Positions 8,346 to 22,989 of a stretch of 34,223 nucleotides of DNA are shown in pieces (within the stretch, counting starts at the first letter, position 1; each line of letters starts with the position of its first letter). The DNA lies in NCBI GenBank assembly GCA_947647475.1, contig CANSKM010000002.1:1-34223 (forward strand), read 5' to 3'. Both the position numbers and the translations under genes were made by a program. The stretch comes from an uncultured bacterium (GTDB lineage: Bacteria; Cyanobacteriota; Vampirovibrionia; Gastranaerophilales; Gastranaerophilaceae). The notes under the pieces were generated by a model. The model was not told the DNA's origin and ran no database searches. It saw nothing but the letters and a program-made list of their open reading frames with translations.

Positions 8346-9242
8346 TTACCTGCTTTTCTTATTTACCCATTTTCCGTCTTCTAAAATCAGGTGTCTTCCC
8401 TGCGGTATGCCGTTTTTAATGTTGCGGACATATTCATATAGTTCGCCCGTGTCATCATACCTTAAATGCAGGCCTATTGTGCTGTTTCCGTCTGCAGAAT
8501 TTTCCATATCTTCATAATACGCGCACATTTTGCCGTCCTGAAACCATATCCACCTTGAAGCGTTTGAACTTCCGTCTGAAAATTCGCCGTAATTTTCAAA
8601 ATACATAGATTTTTCACCATCATTAAAAGTGAAATACCTCTCCATTGTCCGGCCTTCATCTGTTTCTTCAAGGCCTTCAAAGTATTCTGCGGGTTTGCCC
8701 TCTTGTAAAATCAAAATATTTTTCTTATCATCCGGTCTAAATTCTTCCACCCTCTGCAAAACGCCGTCCTTAAAGGTGCTTTTCCTTATAACATCGCCAT
8801 TTGGGGCATATTCAAGCATCTCTTCGGTCCCGTCTTCTTTTGCAAGAATTTCTCTTTCGACACCTACGCCTAAAGAGCCGAGTTCGCCTTCTTCATATAG
8901 TGTCATAAGCTTTTCCGCCTTTGAATTTACAAAGCTTTCAAGCCTTAGCGCCTTGTTTAAAAACAGCTCTGCCACATCCATAGAATCTGCAACTTCAGCC
9001 GGAGTGCCGTATTCCTGAGCCATTATAATATTTGCCCTTGTAATGAGCTCTGCCGCAGTCAACATTTCGGGACTCAAAACAACCAATGCCGTTGAATTTT
9101 CAGGTTTTTGAACAAAAACTTTTGTTTCCGTCAAATCTTCATTTTGCTGAATTGAATTTTTTCTTTCATTATTGTCTGTTTTCTTTAAATCCACACGAGA
9201 CACGGGTTTCATCGAAACGGACGGATTAAAATTAACACCCAT
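8346..9242 (-). CDS. uncharacterised protein with YwqK/MORN-like beta repeats
   Basis: A 298-residue protein of unknown function with no signal peptide or membrane helix. Residues 1-50 are polar and low in complexity (NFNPSVSMKPVSRVDLKK). Residues ~55-115 are predicted helical and rich in Ala, Glu and Leu. From ~118 on there are repeated short strands of the form 'x-Y-D-x-x-G-x-x-x-x-x-x-x-x-x-G': EYAPNGDVIRKSTFKDG, YFTFNDGEKSMYFENYG, WIWFQDGKMCAYYE, LRYDDTGELYEYVRNIKNG and a closing HLILEDGKWVN. This resembles the YwqK/MORN family of antitoxin-like or scaffold repeat proteins. It is transcribed alone, divergently from the pyrimidine operon, and its ribosome site is weak (AGAAAG). Existence as a gene is supported by length and codon pattern; function is not assignable. 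Confidence 0.7.
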   Translation of the reverse strand: MGVNFNPSVSMKPVSRVDLKKTDNNERKNSIQQNEDLTETKVFVQKPENSTALVVLSPEMLTAAELITRANIIMAQEYGTPAEVADSMDVAELFLNKALRLESFVNSKAEKLMTLYEEGELGSLGVGVEREILAKEDGTEEMLEYAPNGDVIRKSTFKDGVLQRVEEFRPDDKKNILILQEGKPAEYFEGLEETDEGRTMERYFTFNDGEKSMYFENYGEFSDGSSNASRWIWFQDGKMCAYYEDMENSADGNSTIGLHLRYDDTGELYEYVRNIKNGIPQGRHLILEDGKWVNKKSR

Positions 9243-9428
9243 TTTTTTCTTTCTAAAACAAATTTTTTCCTAACAACAACCCCTGAATTTTAAAGAGGTA
9301 TATATAATAATACTTCAACAAATTTTTTATTGCCATAATTTTCTGTGTTGGGCAGTTTTCGATTAAAATTCTTAATATTTGTTAATAATTAGCTATGTGA
9401 ATATTTTGTTTAAAGTAGAATGTAAATT

Positions 9429-9473
9429 ATGAAAAGGAAATTTTTAGAAATTTTTTTAACATATAAAAATTAA
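9429..9473 (+). CDS. putative 14-codon leader peptide of the pyrimidine operon
   Basis: A short ORF reading MKRKFLEIFLTYKN, with two T-rich runs (TTTTTAG and TTTTTTTAA). Its TAA stop at 9471-9473 overlaps the first base of the terminator stem that follows. In enterobacterial pyrBI and pyrE leaders, a ribosome following closely through a U-rich pause region blocks the terminator when UTP is scarce; the placement here fits that logic. A TAGAAT box at 9416-9421 ends 7 nt before the ATG, but no good -35 box matches it, and no Shine-Dalgarno is present. Whether it is translated is inference. Confidence 0.4.
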   Translation: MKRKFLEIFLTYKN

Positions 9474-9501
9474 AGAAAGGCGTTTTTGCCTTTCTTTTTT
9501 T
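9472..9501 (+). terminator. intrinsic terminator or attenuator upstream of pyrK
   Basis: A perfect 10-bp stem AAAGAAAGGC (9472-9481) and GCCTTTCTTT (9488-9497) with loop GTTTTT, followed by further T to 9501. No complete gene lies upstream on this strand, so the terminator most likely attenuates the pyr operon or ends a short leader RNA. The remaining 133 nt before pyrK (9502-9634) show another tiny ORF at 9555 (MVESKGFKGERF) and no clear second promoter. Confidence 0.75.
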
Positions 9502-9634
9502 ATAGGGAAAAGAAAAAGCACAAAAAACAGTTATACAGGGGCCTTGAGGCAAAAATGGTTGAAAGCAAAGGTTTTAAGGGCGAAAGATTTTAAAAACAAG
9601 GGCAAAAGCAAGAGCAGGACAAAAGAAAAAGAAG

Positions 9635-10408
9635 ATGAAGAAAAATTTAAAAGGAAAAGTTTTAAACATTGAAAACGTGGCAAAAGACACAGTGAAACTG
9701 CAGTTTTCAACTTCTTTAAAGGAAATCTACCCCGGACAGTTTGTCTCAATTTTAATTCCAAACAAGACACTGCGCCGCCCCTTCAGCGTCGCGGATTTTG
9801 AGGCACACAGCAGCGAAAACGGTATCATCACCGTACTTTTCAAACTTAAAGGCGAAGGCACAAAATACCTAAAATCCCTGAAAAAAGGTGATAGCATTGA
9901 CTATTTGGCTCCACTTGGGAATTGCTTCACCCTGCCTGAAGCCGGAAAAAGAGCTCCTCAAAAGGCGCTCCAAAAGGCTCTTTTAATCGGTGCAGGCATA
10001 GGAATTGCCCCAATGCTCTATCTTAAAAAGGTTTTAACAGAGCGCGACACTGAAAACTTTCTGATTTCAGGCTTTAAAGACGAAGAAGAAGCCGTAAAAG
10101 GTTCTGACAGAACAGTTATAGGCGGAAGTGTTCTTGATAATATCCAAAATCTTTTGGATGAATTTAAACCCGATATAATTTATTCTTGTGGCCCAAAAAT
10201 CGTGCTGGAGCTTGTTTGCAAGCTTGCTGAAAAAAACGGACTTAGGGCTGAAGTTGCAATGGAAAAGGTTATGGCATGCGGAATTGGGGTGTGCAGAGGG
10301 TGTGTGATTAAGGTAAAAGATATGGAAAATGGGGCGAGACTTGTGAAAAACGCCTCAGTTTGCGCGGATGGACCTGTTTTCGCCGGTTCGGAGGTTATAT
10401 GGGAATAG
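9635..10408 (+). CDS. pyrK: dihydroorotate dehydrogenase (NAD+) electron-transfer subunit PyrK
   Basis: A 257-residue FAD and [2Fe-2S] subunit that passes electrons from PyrD to NAD+ in class 1B dihydroorotate dehydrogenase. The FAD-binding barrel shows YPGQFVSILIP and LRRPFSVAD (the RxxS flavin motif), then an NAD-binding part with LLIGAGIGIAPMLYL. The cluster cysteines are C215, C220, C223 (ACGIGVCRGC) and C243 (VCADGPVF), in the expected C-x4-C-x2-C-x19-C spacing. The start ATG 9635 has AAGAAG just upstream. The gene overlaps pyrD by 10 nt, which is consistent with the two subunits being made together. Confidence 0.95.
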   Translation: MKKNLKGKVLNIENVAKDTVKLQFSTSLKEIYPGQFVSILIPNKTLRRPFSVADFEAHSSENGIITVLFKLKGEGTKYLKSLKKGDSIDYLAPLGNCFTLPEAGKRAPQKALQKALLIGAGIGIAPMLYLKKVLTERDTENFLISGFKDEEEAVKGSDRTVIGGSVLDNIQNLLDEFKPDIIYSCGPKIVLELVCKLAEKNGLRAEVAMEKVMACGIGVCRGCVIKVKDMENGARLVKNASVCADGPVFAGSEVIWE

Positions 10409-11328
10409 ATTTACAATCATCCTTATGTGTGGATTTTGGCAAATTTAAGCTTCAAAACCCTATTATGACTGCATCAGGGACATTCGGCTACGTTGATGAG
10501 TTTGATGCATTTTTAAATGTTAAAAACCTTGGAGCCATTGTAACAAAAGGGGTTACGCTTGAAGAAAGGCCCGGAAACGAAGGAAAACGTATATTTGAAT
10601 GCACAGCTGGGATGATAAACCGCATAGGGCTTGAAAATGTCGGAATTCAAAAATTTATTAAAGAAAAACTCCCAAAATTAAGAGAAAAAGGGATAAATTT
10701 TGTTTTAAACATCGCAGGAAGCAGTGTTGAAGACTATGTTAAGCTTGGTGAAATCTCAAAAGCCAATAATATCAAGGCAATCGAGGTTAATGTTTCCTGC
10801 CCGAACGTGAAATCAGGCTGTTTAGAATTTGGAACAGACGAAAAATACCTCTATGAGCTTATTTCAAGAATTAGAGAAGCCTATGACGGTTTTTTAATCG
10901 TAAAATTAACCCCAAATGTAACGGAAATCGAAAAATTAGCCTTTGCCGTTCAAAACGCAGGTGCAGACTGCATTAGCGCAATTAACACCTTAAAAGGACT
11001 TGGTGTAGAATTGAATTTCAACGGCACAAAAGTTTCAAAAAGCTTTGTGCAAGGGGGTTTGAGCGGAAAATGCGTAAAACCCGTGGCGCTTTCTATGGTA
11101 AAAAGAATTAAAGAGGCTGTAAACCTTCCTATAATAGGTCTTGGCGGCATATCCTGCCTTCAAGACGTGCTTGAATTTGTGGCTGTTGGCGCAGATGCAG
11201 TTCAGATTGGGACTGAAAACTTCACTACACCTGATATTTCAGAAAGGCTTATCCTGGAATTAGCTGAATTTATTGAAAAACAGGGCTTTAAAGATTTTAA
11301 TAATTTAAAAGAGGAACTTAGAAAATGA
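10399..11328 (+). CDS. pyrD: dihydroorotate dehydrogenase catalytic subunit, class 1B
   Basis: A 309-residue FMN enzyme oxidising dihydroorotate to orotate, fourth step of UMP synthesis. Seen: NPIMTASGTFGY at the N-terminus, catalytic cysteine C134 within EVNVSCPNVKSG, VKLTPNVTEI, and a phosphate-binding LGGISCLQDVLEF near the C-terminus. The cysteine rather than serine base and the adjacent pyrK identify class 1B. The start ATG 10399 (MGIDLQSSL) has GGAGG about 4 nt upstream; the longer frame from 10360 runs through pyrK and is not conserved sequence. Its stop overlaps the pyrE start by 4 nt. Confidence 0.96.
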   Translation: MGIDLQSSLCVDFGKFKLQNPIMTASGTFGYVDEFDAFLNVKNLGAIVTKGVTLEERPGNEGKRIFECTAGMINRIGLENVGIQKFIKEKLPKLREKGINFVLNIAGSSVEDYVKLGEISKANNIKAIEVNVSCPNVKSGCLEFGTDEKYLYELISRIREAYDGFLIVKLTPNVTEIEKLAFAVQNAGADCISAINTLKGLGVELNFNGTKVSKSFVQGGLSGKCVKPVALSMVKRIKEAVNLPIIGLGGISCLQDVLEFVAVGADAVQIGTENFTTPDISERLILELAEFIEKQGFKDFNNLKEELRK

Positions 11329-11903
11329 CAGAAATTATAGATGTAAAAAAATTGTTAATAGAGGCAGACGGCTTGCTGCACGGGCATTTCTGCCTGACCT
11401 CAGGTCTGCATTCAGACACCTATTTTCAATGTGCAAAATTGTACCAATACCCTGATTTAGTTGAAAAAATCGGATTTGCACTCGCCAAAAAGCTTTCAGG
11501 GCTTGAATTTGACACAATTATTGCCCCCGCAATCGGCGCTGTAATTTTCGGCTATGAAGTTGCAAAACAGGCCAAAAAACGTAATCTTTTTGTTGAAAGA
11601 AAAGACGGCACAATGCAATTGAGACGCGGTTATACGCTTAAAAAAGGTGAAAGAGTCGTAATCATTGAAGACGTCATAACTACCGCCAGGACTATCTTTG
11701 AGACCATTGATGCCATTAAAGAATTTGAACCGGAAATTGTTGGAGTAGGCTGTATTGTAGACAGGACGCAGGGAAAGCTCGATGATAAGTTAAAAATTAA
11801 TTCACTTTTAAAGATTGACCCTGTTGTATATGAACCGGCGAATTGCCCTCTGTGCAAGGAAAATATCCCTGTTGTGAAGCCGGGAAGCAGAGTTGGAGCG
11901 TAA
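11325..11903 (+). CDS. pyrE: orotate phosphoribosyltransferase
   Basis: A 192-residue type I phosphoribosyltransferase joining orotate to PRPP to give OMP. It shows HFCLTSGLHSDTYFQCAKLYQYP near the start (the substrate hood), TIIAPAIGAVIFGYEVA, and the PRPP-binding motif VVIIEDVITTARTI around residues 108-121. The second glycine usual in the TTGGS-type loop is replaced (TTART), a variation seen in other OPRTs. It starts inside the pyrD stop (ATGA overlap), indicating translational coupling. A C-terminal CPLCKEN motif is present, as in a subset of OPRTs that end in a short cysteine pair. Confidence 0.95.
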   Translation: MTEIIDVKKLLIEADGLLHGHFCLTSGLHSDTYFQCAKLYQYPDLVEKIGFALAKKLSGLEFDTIIAPAIGAVIFGYEVAKQAKKRNLFVERKDGTMQLRRGYTLKKGERVVIIEDVITTARTIFETIDAIKEFEPEIVGVGCIVDRTQGKLDDKLKINSLLKIDPVVYEPANCPLCKENIPVVKPGSRVGA

Positions 11904-11918
11904 AAGAAGGAATTTAAT

Positions 11919-12860
11919 ATGTGCGCAGCCGCTAAATTAGAACATTTAATAGACATCAAAAGCCTCTCTACAGAAGAGATTTCAGCCATTGCAGAGCGGG
12001 CTTTAGAGATTAAAAATATGGATAGAGGTGCAAAACCCTTGTCATTAGCGGGGAAACACGCGGCAATGATTTTCTTTGAAAATTCGACCCGCACTTATTT
12101 TTCGTTCGAAATGGCTCTAAACAAGCTTGGCGCAAGCGTTTACAATTTTGAAACTTCTAAATCTTCTCTATCAAAAGGGGAAGATTTTTTTGACACAGTG
12201 AATAACCTTGCTGCCATTGGGTTTGATGCCTGCATAATCCGCACAAGTGAAGAGGGGCTTATAAAAAGGACGATTGAAGAACAAAAAAACGGTCGTAAAT
12301 TTTTCAAAAAAATTGCCTTAATTAACGCAGGGGAAGGCACTTCCGCCCACCCGACCCAAGCCTTGCTTGATTTTGTGACCATTAAAGAAAAATTTAAAAA
12401 TCTAAACGGCTTAAACCTTGCAATAGTAGGCGATATAAGACATTCAAGAGTTGCAAAATCAAATATAGAGCTGTTAAACAGGTTTGGAATTAAAATAAAA
12501 TGCGTTGCACCGAGCTATTTCAAGGATGAAAGCGTGAAAAATGTTGAGTGGTGCGAAAATATGGAAAAAGCTTTTGAAAACGCAGATATAGTAATGGCTT
12601 TAAGAATTCAAAAGGAGAGAATTCAAGATATAATTGAATTTGAAGACTATATTAAAAATTATCAAATAACGGAAGAAAACCTGCCAAAAAATGCTATTTT
12701 AATGCACCCCGGGCCTGTAAACCGCGATATAGAGGTCACTTCAGCCCTTTTGGATTCAAAAAGAGGCAAAACCATACTTGAACAGGCAAATAACGGCGTT
12801 TTTGCCCGAATGGCAGTTTTGGAAATGTTTTTGGGTGAAAACAGGGGGTACAATGTGTAA
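11919..12860 (+). CDS. pyrB: aspartate carbamoyltransferase catalytic subunit
   Basis: A 313-residue ATCase condensing carbamoyl phosphate and aspartate, the committed step of the pathway. Carbamoyl-phosphate contacts are visible as FFENSTRTYFSFE and SSLSKGEDFFDT; aspartate-side motifs are HPTQALLD, RIQKER and HPGPVNRDIE. The residue after STRT is Tyr where Arg is usual (STRTR), and GED replaces the usual GES; the core STRT is kept, so activity is expected. No pyrI regulatory-chain gene follows. A ribosome site (GAAGGAATTTAAT) precedes the start, 15 nt after pyrE. Its end overlaps pyrC by 8 nt. Confidence 0.95.
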   Translation: MCAAAKLEHLIDIKSLSTEEISAIAERALEIKNMDRGAKPLSLAGKHAAMIFFENSTRTYFSFEMALNKLGASVYNFETSKSSLSKGEDFFDTVNNLAAIGFDACIIRTSEEGLIKRTIEEQKNGRKFFKKIALINAGEGTSAHPTQALLDFVTIKEKFKNLNGLNLAIVGDIRHSRVAKSNIELLNRFGIKIKCVAPSYFKDESVKNVEWCENMEKAFENADIVMALRIQKERIQDIIEFEDYIKNYQITEENLPKNAILMHPGPVNRDIEVTSALLDSKRGKTILEQANNGVFARMAVLEMFLGENRGYNV

Positions 12861-13851
12861 AATTGTAAAATTGCCCGCTTTTATCGATATGCACGTACAC
12901 CTGAGAGAGCCCGGGTTTACGGAAAAGGAAACGCTCCAAAGCGGCATGGCTGCTGCGATTGCAGGCGGCTACGGTGCGGTTTGTGCCATGCCAAACACAA
13001 GGCCTGTTGCCGATAACCCTGATGTGATAAGGTTTATAAGGGAATTTACGAGCAAAAACCCCGATATTGATGTCTTTCCGGTTGCAGCAGTGACGAAAAA
13101 CCTTGTAACAACAGAACTTAACGATTTTCAAAGTCTGAAAAATGCCGGCGCTATTGCTTTTTCAAACGATGGCATGCCGATTTTAGATAAAAAAGTATTC
13201 AAAGAAGCCCTAAAGTCAGGTGAATTAATACTTTCCCACCTTGAAGACGAAAAAAACGAGGTTATATGGCAGTTGCACGTATTTGAAGAGGTTCAAAACG
13301 AGGCAAAACAAGGACTTTGCAAAATGCCAAAGCTGCATTTCTGCCATATATCTACATCCCACGCTCTGGATAGCATCAGAAAGGCCAAGGCACACGGCTT
13401 AAAGGTTACCTGCGAAACCGCGCCACACTATTTTACATTTACTAAAAATGACGTAACATCAACAGGCGTCTATAAAATGAACCCTCCGCTAGGCAGTAAC
13501 GATGACAGGGAGGCGGTTTTAGCCGCTTTAAAAGACGGAACGATTGATGTCATTGCAACAGACCACGCGCCGCATACTGTGGAAGAAAAATTAAGGCCGT
13601 ATGAAAAATCCCCAAACGGAATTGTCGGGCTTGAAACTGCCTTCCCACTTGCGCTTTCGGTACTTTCTTTGGATGAAGTTGTTGAAAAAATGTGCTACAA
13701 CCCCGCAAAAATTTTAGGAATTGAAAACAGGCGCGAAATTGAGGTAAATTTAGAAGAAGAATGGGTTGTAAAATCGGATGAATTCAAGTCAAAATGCAAG
13801 ATTTCGCCCTATGAAGGAATGAAGTTAAAAGGAAAAGTAATATGCAAATGA
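12853..13851 (+). CDS. pyrC: dihydroorotase, compact class I type
   Basis: A zinc amidohydrolase cyclising carbamoyl-aspartate to dihydroorotate. Seen: FIDMHVHLREPGFTEKE (the HxH metal pair), AMPNTRPVADNP, SHLEDE, HISTSHALD, CETAPHY and the catalytic-aspartate stretch VIATDHAPHT. The start ATG 12853 follows AGGGGG; the longer frame from 12778 lies inside pyrB. The product is about 332 residues, shorter than the usual ~420-430 for this class: the N-terminal beta-sandwich strands that normally precede the HxH motif are nearly absent (the motif begins at residue ~12) and the mid-protein loop after SHLED is shortened. A recognisable GMKLKGKV segment remains at the C-terminus. Confidence 0.92.
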   Translation: MCKIVKLPAFIDMHVHLREPGFTEKETLQSGMAAAIAGGYGAVCAMPNTRPVADNPDVIRFIREFTSKNPDIDVFPVAAVTKNLVTTELNDFQSLKNAGAIAFSNDGMPILDKKVFKEALKSGELILSHLEDEKNEVIWQLHVFEEVQNEAKQGLCKMPKLHFCHISTSHALDSIRKAKAHGLKVTCETAPHYFTFTKNDVTSTGVYKMNPPLGSNDDREAVLAALKDGTIDVIATDHAPHTVEEKLRPYEKSPNGIVGLETAFPLALSVLSLDEVVEKMCYNPAKILGIENRREIEVNLEEEWVVKSDEFKSKCKISPYEGMKLKGKVICK

Positions 13852-14600
13852 ATGAAAATTTAAAGGAAAAAATAAAAGAGAAAATCGTTCTGGCACTTGA
13901 TGTTGAGGAGTTTGATGAGGCTAAAACCCTTGTGGATGAACTTTCTCCCTATGTTAGCACCTTCAAAGTGGGCCTCCAGCTTTATACAAAATATGGAAAT
14001 GAAGTTGTGGACTACATTTCGAGCAAAAATTCAAACTTTTTTCTTGATGTGAAGCTGCATGACATCCCAAACACCGTAGAAAAAGCCAGTGAGAACGTAG
14101 TTTTGAGGGGTGCAAACTTCTTCAATGTCCACGCCACAGGGGGTTTAAAGATGATGGAGGCAGCGGCAGCCGGAGCCAAAAAAGCGGTCGAAAAATTGAA
14201 TAAAAAACCGCCTATAATCCTTGCTGTGACTATGCTTACAAGCATTTCAGAAGATGTTATGAAAAATGAGTTTGAAATTGATGCTGATGTTTCAGATTTT
14301 GCAATTCGTCTTGCAAAATTGGCTAAAAAGGCAGGTTTAACAGGGGTTGTAGCCTCTTCACTTGAAGCAAGAAAGATAAAAGAAGCCTGTGGAGCGGATT
14401 TCAAGGTTTTATGCCCGGGAATTCGCCCGGAATGGAGCGCAAAAGACGACCAAAAAAGAATTGCCACCCCGAAATTTGCAATTGGAGAAGGAGCAGATTA
14501 TCTTGTAATTGGAAGGGCTGTAACCAAGGCACAGAACCGAATTGAGGCTATGGAAAAAATTTATGAAGAAATTGGAGAATTAGAATGTTTGCAACGTTAA
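13842..14600 (+). CDS. pyrF: orotidine 5'-phosphate decarboxylase (operon copy)
   Basis: A 252-residue TIM-barrel enzyme turning OMP into UMP. Active-site residues are visible in KVGLQLY (lysine) and FLDVKLHDIPNT (Asp-x-Lys-x-x-Asp), with NVHATGG and the phosphate gripper PGIRPEW...DQKR. The start ATG 13842 overlaps pyrC by 10 nt; ATG 13848 is also possible. It overlaps carA by 16 nt. The length of ~250 and the LQLYTKYG segment place it with the bacterial PyrF group. A second, diverged copy lies at 22222-22989. Confidence 0.95.
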   Translation: MQMNENLKEKIKEKIVLALDVEEFDEAKTLVDELSPYVSTFKVGLQLYTKYGNEVVDYISSKNSNFFLDVKLHDIPNTVEKASENVVLRGANFFNVHATGGLKMMEAAAAGAKKAVEKLNKKPPIILAVTMLTSISEDVMKNEFEIDADVSDFAIRLAKLAKKAGLTGVVASSLEARKIKEACGADFKVLCPGIRPEWSAKDDQKRIATPKFAIGEGADYLVIGRAVTKAQNRIEAMEKIYEEIGELECLQR

Positions 14601-15703
14601 TATTGGAAGACGGCACCGTATTAAAGGGCAAAAGCTTTGGGGCACAAGGAACTTCCGTTGGTGAAATTGTCTTTAACACCTCAATGGTAGGCTATCAGGA
14701 GATTTTAACCGACCCGTCATACGCAAACCAAATAATAGTAATGACTTATCCTGAAATTGGCAACTATGGCCTGAATGATGACGATTTTGAATCCGAAAAG
14801 CCAAGGTGCAAGGGCTTTATCGTGAAAAATTCCTGCGAAAACGATTCGCACTATAAAAGCAGGCAAAATATTTCAACGTACCTGAAAACCCACGGTATAA
14901 TTGGAATTGAAGGCCTTGACACCCGCCTTTTGACTAAAAAAATCAGGGAATTCGGGACGATGAACTGTCTTATAACCACTGAAAATGTGGATAACAACAA
15001 CTTGTCCGAAAAAATGGCTCAGCTGAATGCCTATGAACCCAATAGGGACGTGGTTTTAGAGGTTTCGCCCGAAAACTCTTTTGTATTAAACGAAAGCGGA
15101 GATGTAAACCTTGCAATGATAGACTATGGCTGCAAAACGGGGATAACAGACAGCCTTTGTGCAAGGGGATGTAAAATTACCGTTTTTCCTGCAAACGTTG
15201 ACAGTGAGACGATTTTAGCGGGAAATTTTGACAGCGTATTTTTATCAAACGGCCCCGGGGACCCTGCAGACTGCAAAATCGAGGTTCAGACCCTTGAAAA
15301 ATTAATCGGCAAAATCCCGCTTTTTGGCATCTGTCTTGGATATCAGCTATTGTCGATTGTGCTTGGCGCAAAGACATACAAGCTGAAATACGGTCACAGA
15401 GGGGCAAACCACCCTGTTGTGAATTTGCTTAATAAAAAGGTGATGATGACATCCCAAAACCACGGATATGCAGTGGATATGGGCAGTTTGACCAAAATTA
15501 TGGAGCCAACCTATAAAAACCTAAACGACGATACGCTTGAGGGATTTAGGTCTGAAAGCTTGAAAATAGAGGCTGTTCAGTTTCATCCGGAGGCAAACCC
15601 GGGCCCAACCGATGCTGCGGTGATTTTTGACGATTGGGTTCAAAAAATGAGGGAGTATAAAAAGGCGCCCGTAAGAAAAGCAGAGGAAATGGCGAGCCTG
15701 TAA
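14585..15703 (+). CDS. carA: carbamoyl-phosphate synthase small (glutaminase) subunit
   Basis: A 372-residue subunit that hydrolyses glutamine and feeds ammonia to CarB. The N-terminal half has the conserved LEDGTVLKGKSFGA and VFNTSMVGYQEILTDPSY. The C-terminal class I amidotransferase domain has the nucleophile C250 in FGICLGYQL, SNGPGDP, a GHRGANHPV loop, SQNHGYAV and the FHPEANPGP histidine-glutamate pair. All triad residues are present. The start ATG 14585 lies inside the end of pyrF with GGAG just upstream. A 103-nt gap separates it from carB, the longest gap in the operon. Confidence 0.96.
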   Translation: MFATLILEDGTVLKGKSFGAQGTSVGEIVFNTSMVGYQEILTDPSYANQIIVMTYPEIGNYGLNDDDFESEKPRCKGFIVKNSCENDSHYKSRQNISTYLKTHGIIGIEGLDTRLLTKKIREFGTMNCLITTENVDNNNLSEKMAQLNAYEPNRDVVLEVSPENSFVLNESGDVNLAMIDYGCKTGITDSLCARGCKITVFPANVDSETILAGNFDSVFLSNGPGDPADCKIEVQTLEKLIGKIPLFGICLGYQLLSIVLGAKTYKLKYGHRGANHPVVNLLNKKVMMTSQNHGYAVDMGSLTKIMEPTYKNLNDDTLEGFRSESLKIEAVQFHPEANPGPTDAAVIFDDWVQKMREYKKAPVRKAEEMASL

Positions 15704-15806: not shown

Positions 15807-18800
15807 ATGGGAAAAGATTTAAGTATAAAAAAGGTTTTAGTAATAGGCTCAGGGCCAATAGTAATCGGCCAGGCGGCGGAATTTGACTATGCCGGAGTGC
15901 AAGCCTGCCGCGCGCTCAAGGAAGAAAATATTGAGGTTGTGCTTGTAAATTCAAACCCCGCAACGATTATGACCGATGAAGATATCGCAGATAAGGTCTA
16001 TTTGGAGCCTTTGACCCTTGAGAGCCTTACTGAAATTATTAAAAAAGAGCGCCCAAACGGCGTCATTGCTTCTCTTGGCGGGCAAACGGGCCTAAACTTA
16101 GCCTGTGAGCTTGATAAAGCAGGGGTTTTAGCCGAATATAACGTTCGTCTTTTGGGGACAAACATTGAATCCATTAAAAAGGCGGAAGATAGGGAAATGT
16201 TTAAAAACCTGATGAATGAAATCGGGGAGCCAATCCCTGATAGCGAAATCGTTTCGACCTATGAAGACGCCAAAAAATTCGCAGAAAAAATCGGTTTTCC
16301 TATAATCATCCGTCCTGCCTTCACTTTGGGAGGCTCAGGGGGCGGCATAGCCAAGAATGAAGAGGAATACGAGGAAATTGTACACTCCGGATTGCAGCAG
16401 TCTCCTATTAACCAAGTGCTTGTGGAAAAGAGCATTGCGGGCTTCAAAGAGGTGGAATACGAGGTAATGAGGGATTCTAACGACACCTGTATTATCATCT
16501 GTAATATGGAAAACATTGACCCGATCGGGATTCACACAGGCGACAGCTTTGTTGTGGCGCCTTCTCAGACCCTTACAAACAATGAATATCAGATGCTAAG
16601 GACTTCTGCGATAAAAATTATTCGTGCTTTGAAAATCGAAGGGGGCTGCAATGTGCAGTATGCTTTGGATACAAAGACAAATCAATATTATGTAATTGAG
16701 GTAAACCCGCGTGTAAGCCGCTCTTCAGCGCTTGCATCAAAGGCAACGGGGTATCCTATCGCAAAAGTGACAACAAAAATCGCCGTAGGGTATGAGTTGT
16801 CTGAGATTAAGAATGCTATAACAGGTAAAACAGTTGCTGCGTTTGAACCTGCGCTAGATTATGTTGTTGTAAAAATTCCAAAATGGCCCTTTGATAAATT
16901 TGCAACAGGGGACAGAATGCTTGGGACCAAAATGAAGGCCACAGGCGAAGTTATGGCAATCGGGCGTACTTTTAAAAACAGTTTCAAAAAGGCCGTAGCA
17001 TCGCTTGAAGACAAGCATACAGGGGTTTTGCATTACAAGTTTGAAAATTTATCAAATGAAGAATTGTTGGAAGACCTTCATATTCAGGATGACAGAAGGA
17101 TTTTCAGGGTTTCTGAAGCCCTAAAGAGGAATTTTGACGTTCAAAAAATCCGCGAAATTACAAAAATTGACCCGTGGTTTATAAACCAAATTAAAGATAT
17201 CGTGGAACTTGAGACTGCGCTTGAAAATACACACCTTGATGAAGAATTATACAAGAAAGCAAAGGGTTTTGGGTATTTAGACTCTGAAATTGCAGCAATA
17301 TCAAAGGTTTCAGAGGATGAGCTCAAAAAATACGACTACCCCGCGGTGTTTAGGATTGTAGACACCTGTGCGGGCGAATTTCACGCCTCAACCCCCTATT
17401 TTTACTCAACTTACGGGGAAGCTTGCGAGCTTGAAGAGTTTAAAAAAGAGCACAGCACAGAAAACCGGGATGCAGAAACCCCAGAGGCCCAAAACAAAGC
17501 GGAAGCCAAGGAAAATACCAAAGGAACGACCAAAACCGGCCCCAAAGAAAACATCCTTGTTTTGGGCTCCGGACCGATTAGAATCGGCCAGGGGATTGAG
17601 TTTGACTACTGTTCGGTGCATGCTTCCAAGGCAATTTTAGAAAACGGGTATGAGTCCGTTATGGTAAATTCAAACCCTGAGACGCTTTCGACCGATTTTG
17701 ACATTGCAAGCCGCCTTTATTTTGAACCGATGAACGCCGAAAACGTGATGAACATTGTAAAAAAAGAGAAGCCGTACGGTGTAATGGTTCAGTTTGGCGG
17801 ACAAACGGCGATTAATTTGGCGCCAAAGCTTGCAAAAGAAGGGGTTAAAATCCTTGGGACCTCTTTAGAGAGTATCGATGCGGTTGAAGACAGAAAAGTT
17901 TTTGAAAAGTTGTTGTCAGAGCTCAACATCCCGCAACCGAAGGGCAGAGGGGTAAGGAGCGCTGCCGAAGCCCTAAGCACGACAAAAGAGCTCGGGTATC
18001 CTGTTTTGGTGCGCCCCTCTTACGTTATAGGGGGCCGCGGAATGCAGGTTGTGTATAACGATGATGAGCTTTTAACATATATTAACGAGGCGCTGAAATT
18101 TTCAGGCGAGCACCCGGTTTTAATTGACCAATATATTGAGGGCCTTGAAGTTGAACTGGATGCAATTTCAGACGGTAAGGACGTCTTAATCCCGGGAATT
18201 TGCGAACATATAGAGCGCGCAGGGGTGCATTCGGGCGATTCTATGAGCATTTACCCCTCAAGAAACATTACAAAATCTCAGGAAAAAAAGCTTGTCGAAT
18301 ATGCTAAAAAAATCGCCAAAAGGGTTAATATCATTGGCTTAATGAACATTCAGTTTATTATAAAAGACGACACGGTTTATGTAATTGAAGTGAACCCGAG
18401 GGCTTCGCGCACGGTGCCCATTATGTCTAAGGTTACGGGCATTCCGATGACAAAAATTGCAATTAATGCGATTTTAGGAAAAAGCGTGAAAAGTCAAGGC
18501 TTTGGGACGGGGCTTTATAAGACAACAAAGCTTGTGTGCGTAAAAATGCCTGTCTTTAGCTTCCAAAAGCTCAACAGGATTGACCCTGCACTTGCGCCCG
18601 AGATGAAATCCACAGGAGAGGTTTTAGGGGTTGATTATTCCTATAAAAAGGCGCTTTTAAAGGCGTTTATCGCAGGCGGGTATAAATTTGGCCAGCGCAA
18701 ACAGAGGGTTTTGGTTTCTTTGAATGACCATTATAAAAAACCTGCATTAAAAATCGTGAAAAAGCTTTATTCACAAGGATTTTTCATTATGGCAACCTGG

Positions 18801-19115
18801 GGAACGCACAAATTCCTTGAAAAAAACGGGGTACCATCTAAGATGATTGAAAAATTTATGGTGGATAAACTCCAAAAACGTATGAAAGAAGGGCGTTTGA
18901 GCTTTGTTTTGAATACGCCTACTTTAGGGAAAAACTCGCAAACTTCAGGTTTCCAGATTAGGACAATCGCTGAAATGTATGGTATTCCTTGTTTTACAAG
19001 CATTGACACGGCAAGAGCCTATTTAAGTGCGGTTAAAACGTATGATAAGGGCGCAAAGCTAAGCTCTGAAACCATTACAAACTATCGCAAAAAGAAATTC
19101 TTTGGAATATTTTAA
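15807..19115 (+). CDS. carB: carbamoyl-phosphate synthase large subunit
   Basis: A 1102-residue ATP-dependent synthetase with two homologous ATP-grasp halves. The first (residues ~1-400, starting VLVIGSGPIVIGQAAEFDYAG) activates bicarbonate and the second (from ~residue 580, ILVLGSGPIRIGQGIEFDY) phosphorylates carbamate. An oligomerisation domain lies between them and an MGS-like allosteric domain occupies the last ~140 residues (VLVSLNDHYKK to the end). Residues ~550-579 are a low-complexity Glu/Lys/Thr/Ala-rich linker that lengthens the usual short junction by about 30 residues. A ribosome site (AGGGAATTTAAA) precedes the start. A strong terminator follows, closing the operon. Confidence 0.97.
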   Translation: MGKDLSIKKVLVIGSGPIVIGQAAEFDYAGVQACRALKEENIEVVLVNSNPATIMTDEDIADKVYLEPLTLESLTEIIKKERPNGVIASLGGQTGLNLACELDKAGVLAEYNVRLLGTNIESIKKAEDREMFKNLMNEIGEPIPDSEIVSTYEDAKKFAEKIGFPIIIRPAFTLGGSGGGIAKNEEEYEEIVHSGLQQSPINQVLVEKSIAGFKEVEYEVMRDSNDTCIIICNMENIDPIGIHTGDSFVVAPSQTLTNNEYQMLRTSAIKIIRALKIEGGCNVQYALDTKTNQYYVIEVNPRVSRSSALASKATGYPIAKVTTKIAVGYELSEIKNAITGKTVAAFEPALDYVVVKIPKWPFDKFATGDRMLGTKMKATGEVMAIGRTFKNSFKKAVASLEDKHTGVLHYKFENLSNEELLEDLHIQDDRRIFRVSEALKRNFDVQKIREITKIDPWFINQIKDIVELETALENTHLDEELYKKAKGFGYLDSEIAAISKVSEDELKKYDYPAVFRIVDTCAGEFHASTPYFYSTYGEACELEEFKKEHSTENRDAETPEAQNKAEAKENTKGTTKTGPKENILVLGSGPIRIGQGIEFDYCSVHASKAILENGYESVMVNSNPETLSTDFDIASRLYFEPMNAENVMNIVKKEKPYGVMVQFGGQTAINLAPKLAKEGVKILGTSLESIDAVEDRKVFEKLLSELNIPQPKGRGVRSAAEALSTTKELGYPVLVRPSYVIGGRGMQVVYNDDELLTYINEALKFSGEHPVLIDQYIEGLEVELDAISDGKDVLIPGICEHIERAGVHSGDSMSIYPSRNITKSQEKKLVEYAKKIAKRVNIIGLMNIQFIIKDDTVYVIEVNPRASRTVPIMSKVTGIPMTKIAINAILGKSVKSQGFGTGLYKTTKLVCVKMPVFSFQKLNRIDPALAPEMKSTGEVLGVDYSYKKALLKAFIAGGYKFGQRKQRVLVSLNDHYKKPALKIVKKLYSQGFFIMATWGTHKFLEKNGVPSKMIEKFMVDKLQKRMKEGRLSFVLNTPTLGKNSQTSGFQIRTIAEMYGIPCFTSIDTARAYLSAVKTYDKGAKLSSETITNYRKKKFFGIF

Positions 19116-22221: not shown

Positions 22222-22989
22222 ATGACAATTGAAAAACCAAAAACCGCAAAAGACCGAATTATCCTTGCATTAGACGTTGATGATTTTGATGAAGCAAAAA
22301 ACCTCGTTATGGAATTAAAAGATTATGCAGGCTATTTTAAAGTGGGCCTGCAATTATACACTTCATGCGGGTTTGAAGTTATAAAAATGATTAACGGGCT
22401 TGGCGCAAAAGTGTTCTTCGACGGCAAATTCCACGATATTCCAAACACCGTTGCAAGGGCTTCGGCAAACCTTGTGAAAAACGATGTAAGCCTTTTTGAT
22501 GTACATATTAAAGGCGGCTCCAAAATGCTTACAACGACAGTAAAACTTGCGCAGGAAACCGCAAAAAAATACGGTAAAGAAATCCCTTCAATCCTTGGTG
22601 TAACGCTATTATCAAGCTTTGGGCAAAAAACTTTAACCCAGGAATTGAATGTAAATATGAACATTGACGATTACGTTGACGGCCTTGCAAAAATGGCAAA
22701 AGATGCAGGCCTGGATGGCGTTGTAGCATCGGCTTCAGAGGCTCCTGCCATAAGAAAAGAATGCGGCGAAGATTTTATAATTGTTTGTCCTGCAATCCGC
22801 CCGACCTGGAGCGTTGTAAACGACCAGGTAAGGGTTGTAACTCCAACGGATGCAATACATTCAGGGGTTGATTATATGGTAGTTGGGCGCCCTGTAATTT
22901 GTGCGGAAAACAAGGTGGATGCGATAAAACTTATAATTGATGAAATCGAAGAAGCGCTTGAAACGCAGCCTGTGGGCACAAGAGCCTGA
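22222..22989 (+). CDS. pyrF: second orotidine 5'-phosphate decarboxylase-like protein
   Basis: A 255-residue paralogue of the operon-encoded PyrF. The barrel motifs are kept: LALDVDDFDEAKNLV, KVGLQLYTSCG, FFDGKFHDIPNT (Asp-x-Lys-x-x-Asp preserved), CPAIRPTW and NDQVRVVTP. Differences from the operon copy are HDIPNT preceded by DGKF instead of DVKL, DVHIKGG instead of NVHATGG, and AIRP instead of GIRP. All catalytic residues visible to me are present, so decarboxylation of OMP is plausible. Related barrel enzymes (KGPDC/HPS family) use other substrates, but the DIPNT and CPxIRP motifs favour OMP. AAGGCG lies 8 nt before ATG 22222. It heads a transcript with ald, proB and proA. Confidence 0.9.
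   Translation: MTIEKPKTAKDRIILALDVDDFDEAKNLVMELKDYAGYFKVGLQLYTSCGFEVIKMINGLGAKVFFDGKFHDIPNTVARASANLVKNDVSLFDVHIKGGSKMLTTTVKLAQETAKKYGKEIPSILGVTLLSSFGQKTLTQELNVNMNIDDYVDGLAKMAKDAGLDGVVASASEAPAIRKECGEDFIIVCPAIRPTWSVVNDQVRVVTPTDAIHSGVDYMVVGRPVICAENKVDAIKLIIDEIEEALETQPVGTRA

Follow-up and report, generated by a model that had tools for sequence, protein, structure and literature searches.

What does a very short open reading frame do at the edge of an intrinsic terminator, just ahead of a pyrimidine biosynthesis operon, in an uncultured bacterium of the Gastranaerophilaceae? The question is raised by a window of 34,223 nucleotides (the whole stretch of DNA that was analyzed), for which a first-pass annotation had proposed a UTP-sensitive attenuator of the enterobacterial pyrBI/pyrE type. 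Judging from the leader and its counterparts in relatives, the best reading is that it is very probably a translation-coupled attenuator of this enterobacterial kind, which likely responds to pyrimidine nucleotides. That the tract sensing UTP and CTP lies inside the terminator itself is a further proposal, toward which we lean only slightly.

Anatomy of the leader and its operon

The elements concerned all lie on the forward strand and are listed below with their coordinates in the window; gene assignments are from NCBIfam.

9379..9407, + strand: putative promoter, TTGTTA, 17 nt, TATTTT, 21 nt upstream of the leader ATG; weak (8/12)
9429..9473, + strand: leader ORF, 14 codons and TAA (MKRKFLEIFLTYKN), frame and position kept in relatives
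9472..9497, + strand: intrinsic terminator hairpin, with a purine-rich 5′ arm AAAGAAAGG(CG) and a U-rich loop and 3′ arm
9483..9501, + strand: loop, 3′ arm and U-tract (19 nt, of which 15 are U and 3 are C), the stretch proposed to sense UTP/CTP
9502..9634, + strand: spacer from terminator to pyrK, long in the window compared with 13–55 nt in most relatives
9635..10408, + strand: pyrK (dihydroorotate dehydrogenase electron transfer subunit)
10360..11328, + strand: pyrD (longest ORF; the true start is probably later)
11325..11903, + strand: pyrE
11919..12860, + strand: pyrB
12778..13851, + strand: pyrC (longest ORF; the true start is probably later)
13842..14600, + strand: pyrF
14585..15703, + strand: carA
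15807..19115, + strand: carB

Running from its ATG at 9429–9431 to its TAA at 9471–9473, the leader ORF ends on the first bases of the terminator (9472–9501 with the U-tract), directly ahead of the eight-gene operon pyrK-pyrD-pyrE-pyrB-pyrC-pyrF-carA-carB, just as the first-pass annotation had described. The hairpin is formed by the inverted repeat AAAGAAAGGC/GCCTTTCTTT (9472–9497), is followed by TTTT up to 9501, and has a folding energy of −13.2 kcal/mol; a terminator scan over 600 bp returned two matches against 0.2 expected, the second being the minus-strand image of the same hairpin. As the upstream gene (8346–9242) is on the opposite strand, this terminator cannot be that of an upstream sense gene, and it sits between the putative, sequence-inferred promoter and the first pyr gene. 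The promoter candidate of the window scores under the cutoff of the scan; those of relatives are clearer, with TTGAC(A/T)-17-(T/G)ATAAT at a similar distance.

With regard to the genes themselves, the pyrK match falls under the curated cutoffs of its models, yet it is to the best family and fits the operon context. A second pyrF (orotidine-5′-phosphate decarboxylase, 241.7 bits) lies outside the operon at 22222–22989 (+), the operon copy being that at 13842–14600, and inspection by eye revealed no such attenuator directly upstream of this genome's uracil phosphoribosyltransferase gene.

Conservation and specificity of the layout

We searched relatives and 239 genomes of the family for pyrK, with one extra genome from a sheep colon metagenome, and then extracted the leaders; the genomes are mostly draft assemblies, that of the window being 78% complete. 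A short ORF ending at the stem or, in five cases, continuing through it was found in all 85 pyrK leaders, from families f1, f6, and f7 and about 20 genera, a total that includes nine leaders lying outside the script or failing it, whose readings by eye carry no statistical test. By script, an ATG ORF ending between −20 and +18 of the stem is present in 75 of 81 leaders against 16.6 expected when the 110 nt preceding each stem are dinucleotide-shuffled, and the narrower interval from −9 to +7 holds 54 of these 81 leaders against 8.6 expected. Since leaders within a genus are related, such per-leader counts overstate independence, and the genus-level figure (19.6 of 21 against 4.5 expected) is safer. 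Stop codons are most frequent at the stem base, and the distance from stop to stem is mostly −1 to 13 nt. The leader peptide and DNA sequences differ among relatives (the peptide reads MKRKFLTKIFI in the same-genus genome G001) while the ORF–terminator layout is kept, so that the comparative check suggested in the first-pass annotation, conservation of the coupling rather than of the sequence, came out in its favor.

The common anatomy consists of a promoter-like element, a start codon mostly 16–26 nt past the −10 in relatives, an ORF of 7–22 codons, a stop at the base of the terminator stem, and pyrK often 13–55 nt further on. This last distance, which holds in most relatives, leaves little room for a promoter 3′ of the terminator, and a main start of transcription beyond 9501, which the annotation had named as the finding that would speak against it, is unlikely for the class. 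In six leaders (L033, L089, L092, L079, L008, and L095), the −10 ends just 6–9 nt before the leader start codon, and the RNAs on which their ORFs are translated may be leaderless. Among the leaders read by eye, the ORF ends at the stem in G022, G134, and G207 and in the loop in G099, and it runs through the terminator in G034, G112, G187, G153, and G145, overlapping the pyrK start in the last four. In these five run-through leaders (L016, L059, L099, L100, and L101), the pyrBI-like geometry is found beside the pyrE-like geometry within the same genera. Two leaders of one genus, L062 (G099) and L066 (G207), also carry about three tandem copies of a ~115-bp repeat (GCGTAGGGTGAAATCGAGCG...) between the attenuator and pyrK.

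Because selection on the leader peptide is weak (pN/pS 0.74, too weak to support a function of the peptide), we infer translation of the leader ORF from its frame and geometry; weak peptide selection would be expected if translation mattered and the peptide did not. In a control of 1.2 Mb from G033 (f1) and G046 (f7), comprising 1,074 gene calls made by crude calling, 17 leaders have a terminator, and six of them have a short ORF nearby against about 5 expected. Read by eye, only the two pyr leaders among these 17 combine a short ORF with a purine-armed terminator, and the layout is therefore not general in these two genomes.

As regards the wider distribution, pyrK occurs in other contexts and this leader is absent in families f2, f3, f4, f10, and f12 of the order/class. 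Within the family itself, searches found neither operon-type pyrK nor pyrB in roughly half of the sampled genera or more, which suggests that de novo pyrimidine synthesis was lost there; the attenuator was found wherever the operon is present in the sampled genera.

Terminator composition and a proposed mechanism

The pyr-leader terminators have an unusual composition, which we assessed against 124 gene-end terminators, 122 from G033 and G046 and two from the window. At least six of the seven apical bases of the 5′ arm are purines in 92% of the pyr-leader terminators versus 11% of the gene-end ones, and the pairs are oriented accordingly: with the two apical pairs excluded, A-U outnumbers U-A by 402 to 2 and G-C outnumbers C-G by 165 to 8 in the pyr leaders, compared with 371 to 115 and 266 to 168 in gene-end terminators. 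As A-U and G-C pairs are both oriented, low GC alone is insufficient to account for this asymmetry. With one leader taken per genus, the purine fraction of the 5′ arm is 0.97 against 0.615, a value not attained once when sets of 20 ordinary terminators were drawn 100,000 times, and the substitutions between genera exchange A-U for G-C with the purine staying 5′. The loops are 72% U and 10% A, versus 46% U and 37% A at gene ends; from loop to tail, the U fraction is 0.68 versus 0.53, and the pyrimidine run is longer, at 13.9 nt versus 8.7 nt. On average, this stretch of the pyr-leader terminators is 20 nt long and contains 15 U and 3 C, and the conserved U-rich stretch of these leaders is the terminator loop, 3′ arm, and tail.

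On this basis, the explanation that we consider likely as a whole is a pyrimidine-operon attenuator in which the polymerase would race the first ribosome, with sensing inside the hairpin. Transcription would start about 15 nt upstream of the very short ORF. With UTP and CTP abundant, the polymerase would clear the A-rich leader and the terminator ahead of the ribosome's arrival at the stop codon and, the ribosome being late, the hairpin would fold and transcription would terminate. With pyrimidine nucleotides low, the polymerase is predicted to slow over the ~20 nt (90% pyrimidine) that run from the loop through the 3′ arm to the U-tract; the ribosome would then arrive at the stop codon and cover the 5′ arm, and the operon would be transcribed. 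A homopurine 5′ arm would force a polypyrimidine 3′ arm, making the UTP/CTP-dependent stretch and the terminating stretch one and the same. The homopurine arms could conceivably have another cause, which we count against this explanation. That a ribosome could act at such distances is consistent with work on E. coli, in which a terminator loses nearly all of its activity when it lies a few bp past a stop codon and regains it beyond ~30 bp (PMC4824070); the stop-to-stem distances of the pyr leaders fall within this repressed range.

The closest known systems are those of E. coli. The rph-pyrE attenuator resembles the present one in that a pyr gene is preceded by an intrinsic terminator, with a translated ORF ending 5′ of it; in both, a ribosome positioned at the stop codon would impede hairpin formation, and an antiterminator is absent. 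However, the E. coli ORF is the full gene rph rather than 7–22 codons, the U-run is directly before the stem (GATTTTTAAGGCGACT; GATTTTT) rather than within the hairpin, and the terminator arms are mixed (AAGGCGACT/AGTCGCCTT in the MG1655 record), with no purine/pyrimidine asymmetry. The pyrBI leader likewise has a short ORF, pyrL, and an intrinsic terminator before a pyrimidine operon, and pyrL traverses its terminator as the ORFs do in the five run-through leaders. It differs by its 44 codons, by a U-rich stretch upstream of the hairpin (GTTTTTCTTCCCGTT in the MG1655 record), and by a terminator (AGCCCCTC/GAGGGGCT) whose pyrimidine-rich 5′ arm, AGCCCCTC, gives it the opposite asymmetry. UTP control of pyrBI operates via a short ORF overlapped by a U-rich stretch (PMC3641672), and close coupling across pyrL is required to stop its terminator from forming (PMC5021804). 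In the leaders studied here, no U-rich pause region is conserved upstream of the hairpin, the ORFs having no conserved U-run. We therefore file the pyr leader as a variant that would work in the pyrBI/pyrE manner with its U-rich stretch in the hairpin instead of upstream.

To our knowledge, most known cases of UTP-sensing attenuation by ribosome coupling come from enterobacteria and related bacteria, and we found no report of a leader of this kind in the open-licence literature. The pyr leaders have no sequence relation to those of E. coli and are conserved in about 20 genera, which suggests an independent origin of the same physical principle. They also suggest that polymerase and first ribosome run close enough in these uncultured bacteria for a race to matter, and conservation of the homopurine/polypyrimidine stem points to a compact design that would unite nucleotide sensor and terminator in one element. 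Whether the terminator is itself the pyrimidine sensor, gated by an ORF of 7–22 codons in an independently evolved minimal form of pyrimidine attenuation, appears to us evenly balanced. A purine-armed terminator abutted by a short ORF provides a rule by which other genomes can be searched.

Alternative explanations

The same ribosome-coupled attenuator might instead follow E. coli in relying on UTP-sensitive pausing further upstream, within the leader ORF, and the U richness of the hairpin would then be incidental. The first-pass annotation had placed the sensor there, in two U-rich runs, and these do exist in the ORF of the window (T-runs of 5 and 7), the leader ORFs overall being 52% A, 32% U, and 5.5% C. 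However, such runs are confined to this species and its near relatives, and the longest U-run has a median of 3 among 76 leader ORFs; the 32% U of the leaders is below the 40% of the DNA upstream of them; and the hairpin asymmetry is kept in about 20 genera. The annotation thus held for the ribosome-coupled attenuator and failed for the U-runs as its sensor, and we regard pausing within the ORF as rather unlikely.

Marginally less probable still is that the device senses general translation capacity or ribosome loading, its homopurine 5′ arm serving to keep the ribosome track unstructured or to avoid Rho. The geometry alone would suffice for such sensing, and PMC13323073 ties purine bias in genes to Rho avoidance. 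Against it, the layout occurs only before the pyr genes in the 1.2-Mb control, the asymmetry is missing from gene-end terminators in these genomes, and an unstructured arm leaves the U-rich, A-poor loops unexplained.

Pyr operons of Gram-positive bacteria are often under PyrR-type or riboswitch control, in which a protein or a ligand binds the leader RNA, and the Bacillus PyrR attenuator (RF00515) resembles the present case as a terminator-based control of a similar operon. Such control is very improbable here. PyrR exceeded the cutoff in none of 59 genomes (44 of them with a completeness of 90% or more and a contamination of 5% or less, the window's own being 78% complete), which yielded sub-cutoff phosphoribosyltransferases only. 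The Rfam search for the PyrR element, riboswitches, and other elements returned only tRNAs, with no match to RF00515 or any other regulatory family at gathering score, in line with the annotation, which had seen no PyrR-binding element; the terminator is the only conserved structure. A PyrR-like protein at a sub-cutoff 78.5 bits was noted at G012:C189:256-735, in a genome with 5% contamination.

Amino-acid attenuation of the trp/his type, in which stalling at regulatory codons would favor an antiterminator, has an even smaller probability: a short leader ORF and a terminator are common to both, but a conserved run of regulatory codons is absent here, and folding shows no competing antiterminator, the 5′ arm being 6% paired without its 3′ arm (z = 0). 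The rarity of Asp and Gln codons speaks against sensing of the substrate amino acids, and this candidate is contradicted by folding and codon content alike.

Finally, an ORF that lies by chance next to an ordinary or unrelated terminator, conceivable in AT-rich DNA that is rich in short ORFs and in which ~20% of leaders would be expected to have one in the wide interval, has a negligible probability and is refuted for the class as a whole by the excess over shuffles (75 of 81 against 16.6), the peak of stops at the stem base, and the 85 of 85 leaders obtained with manual reading.
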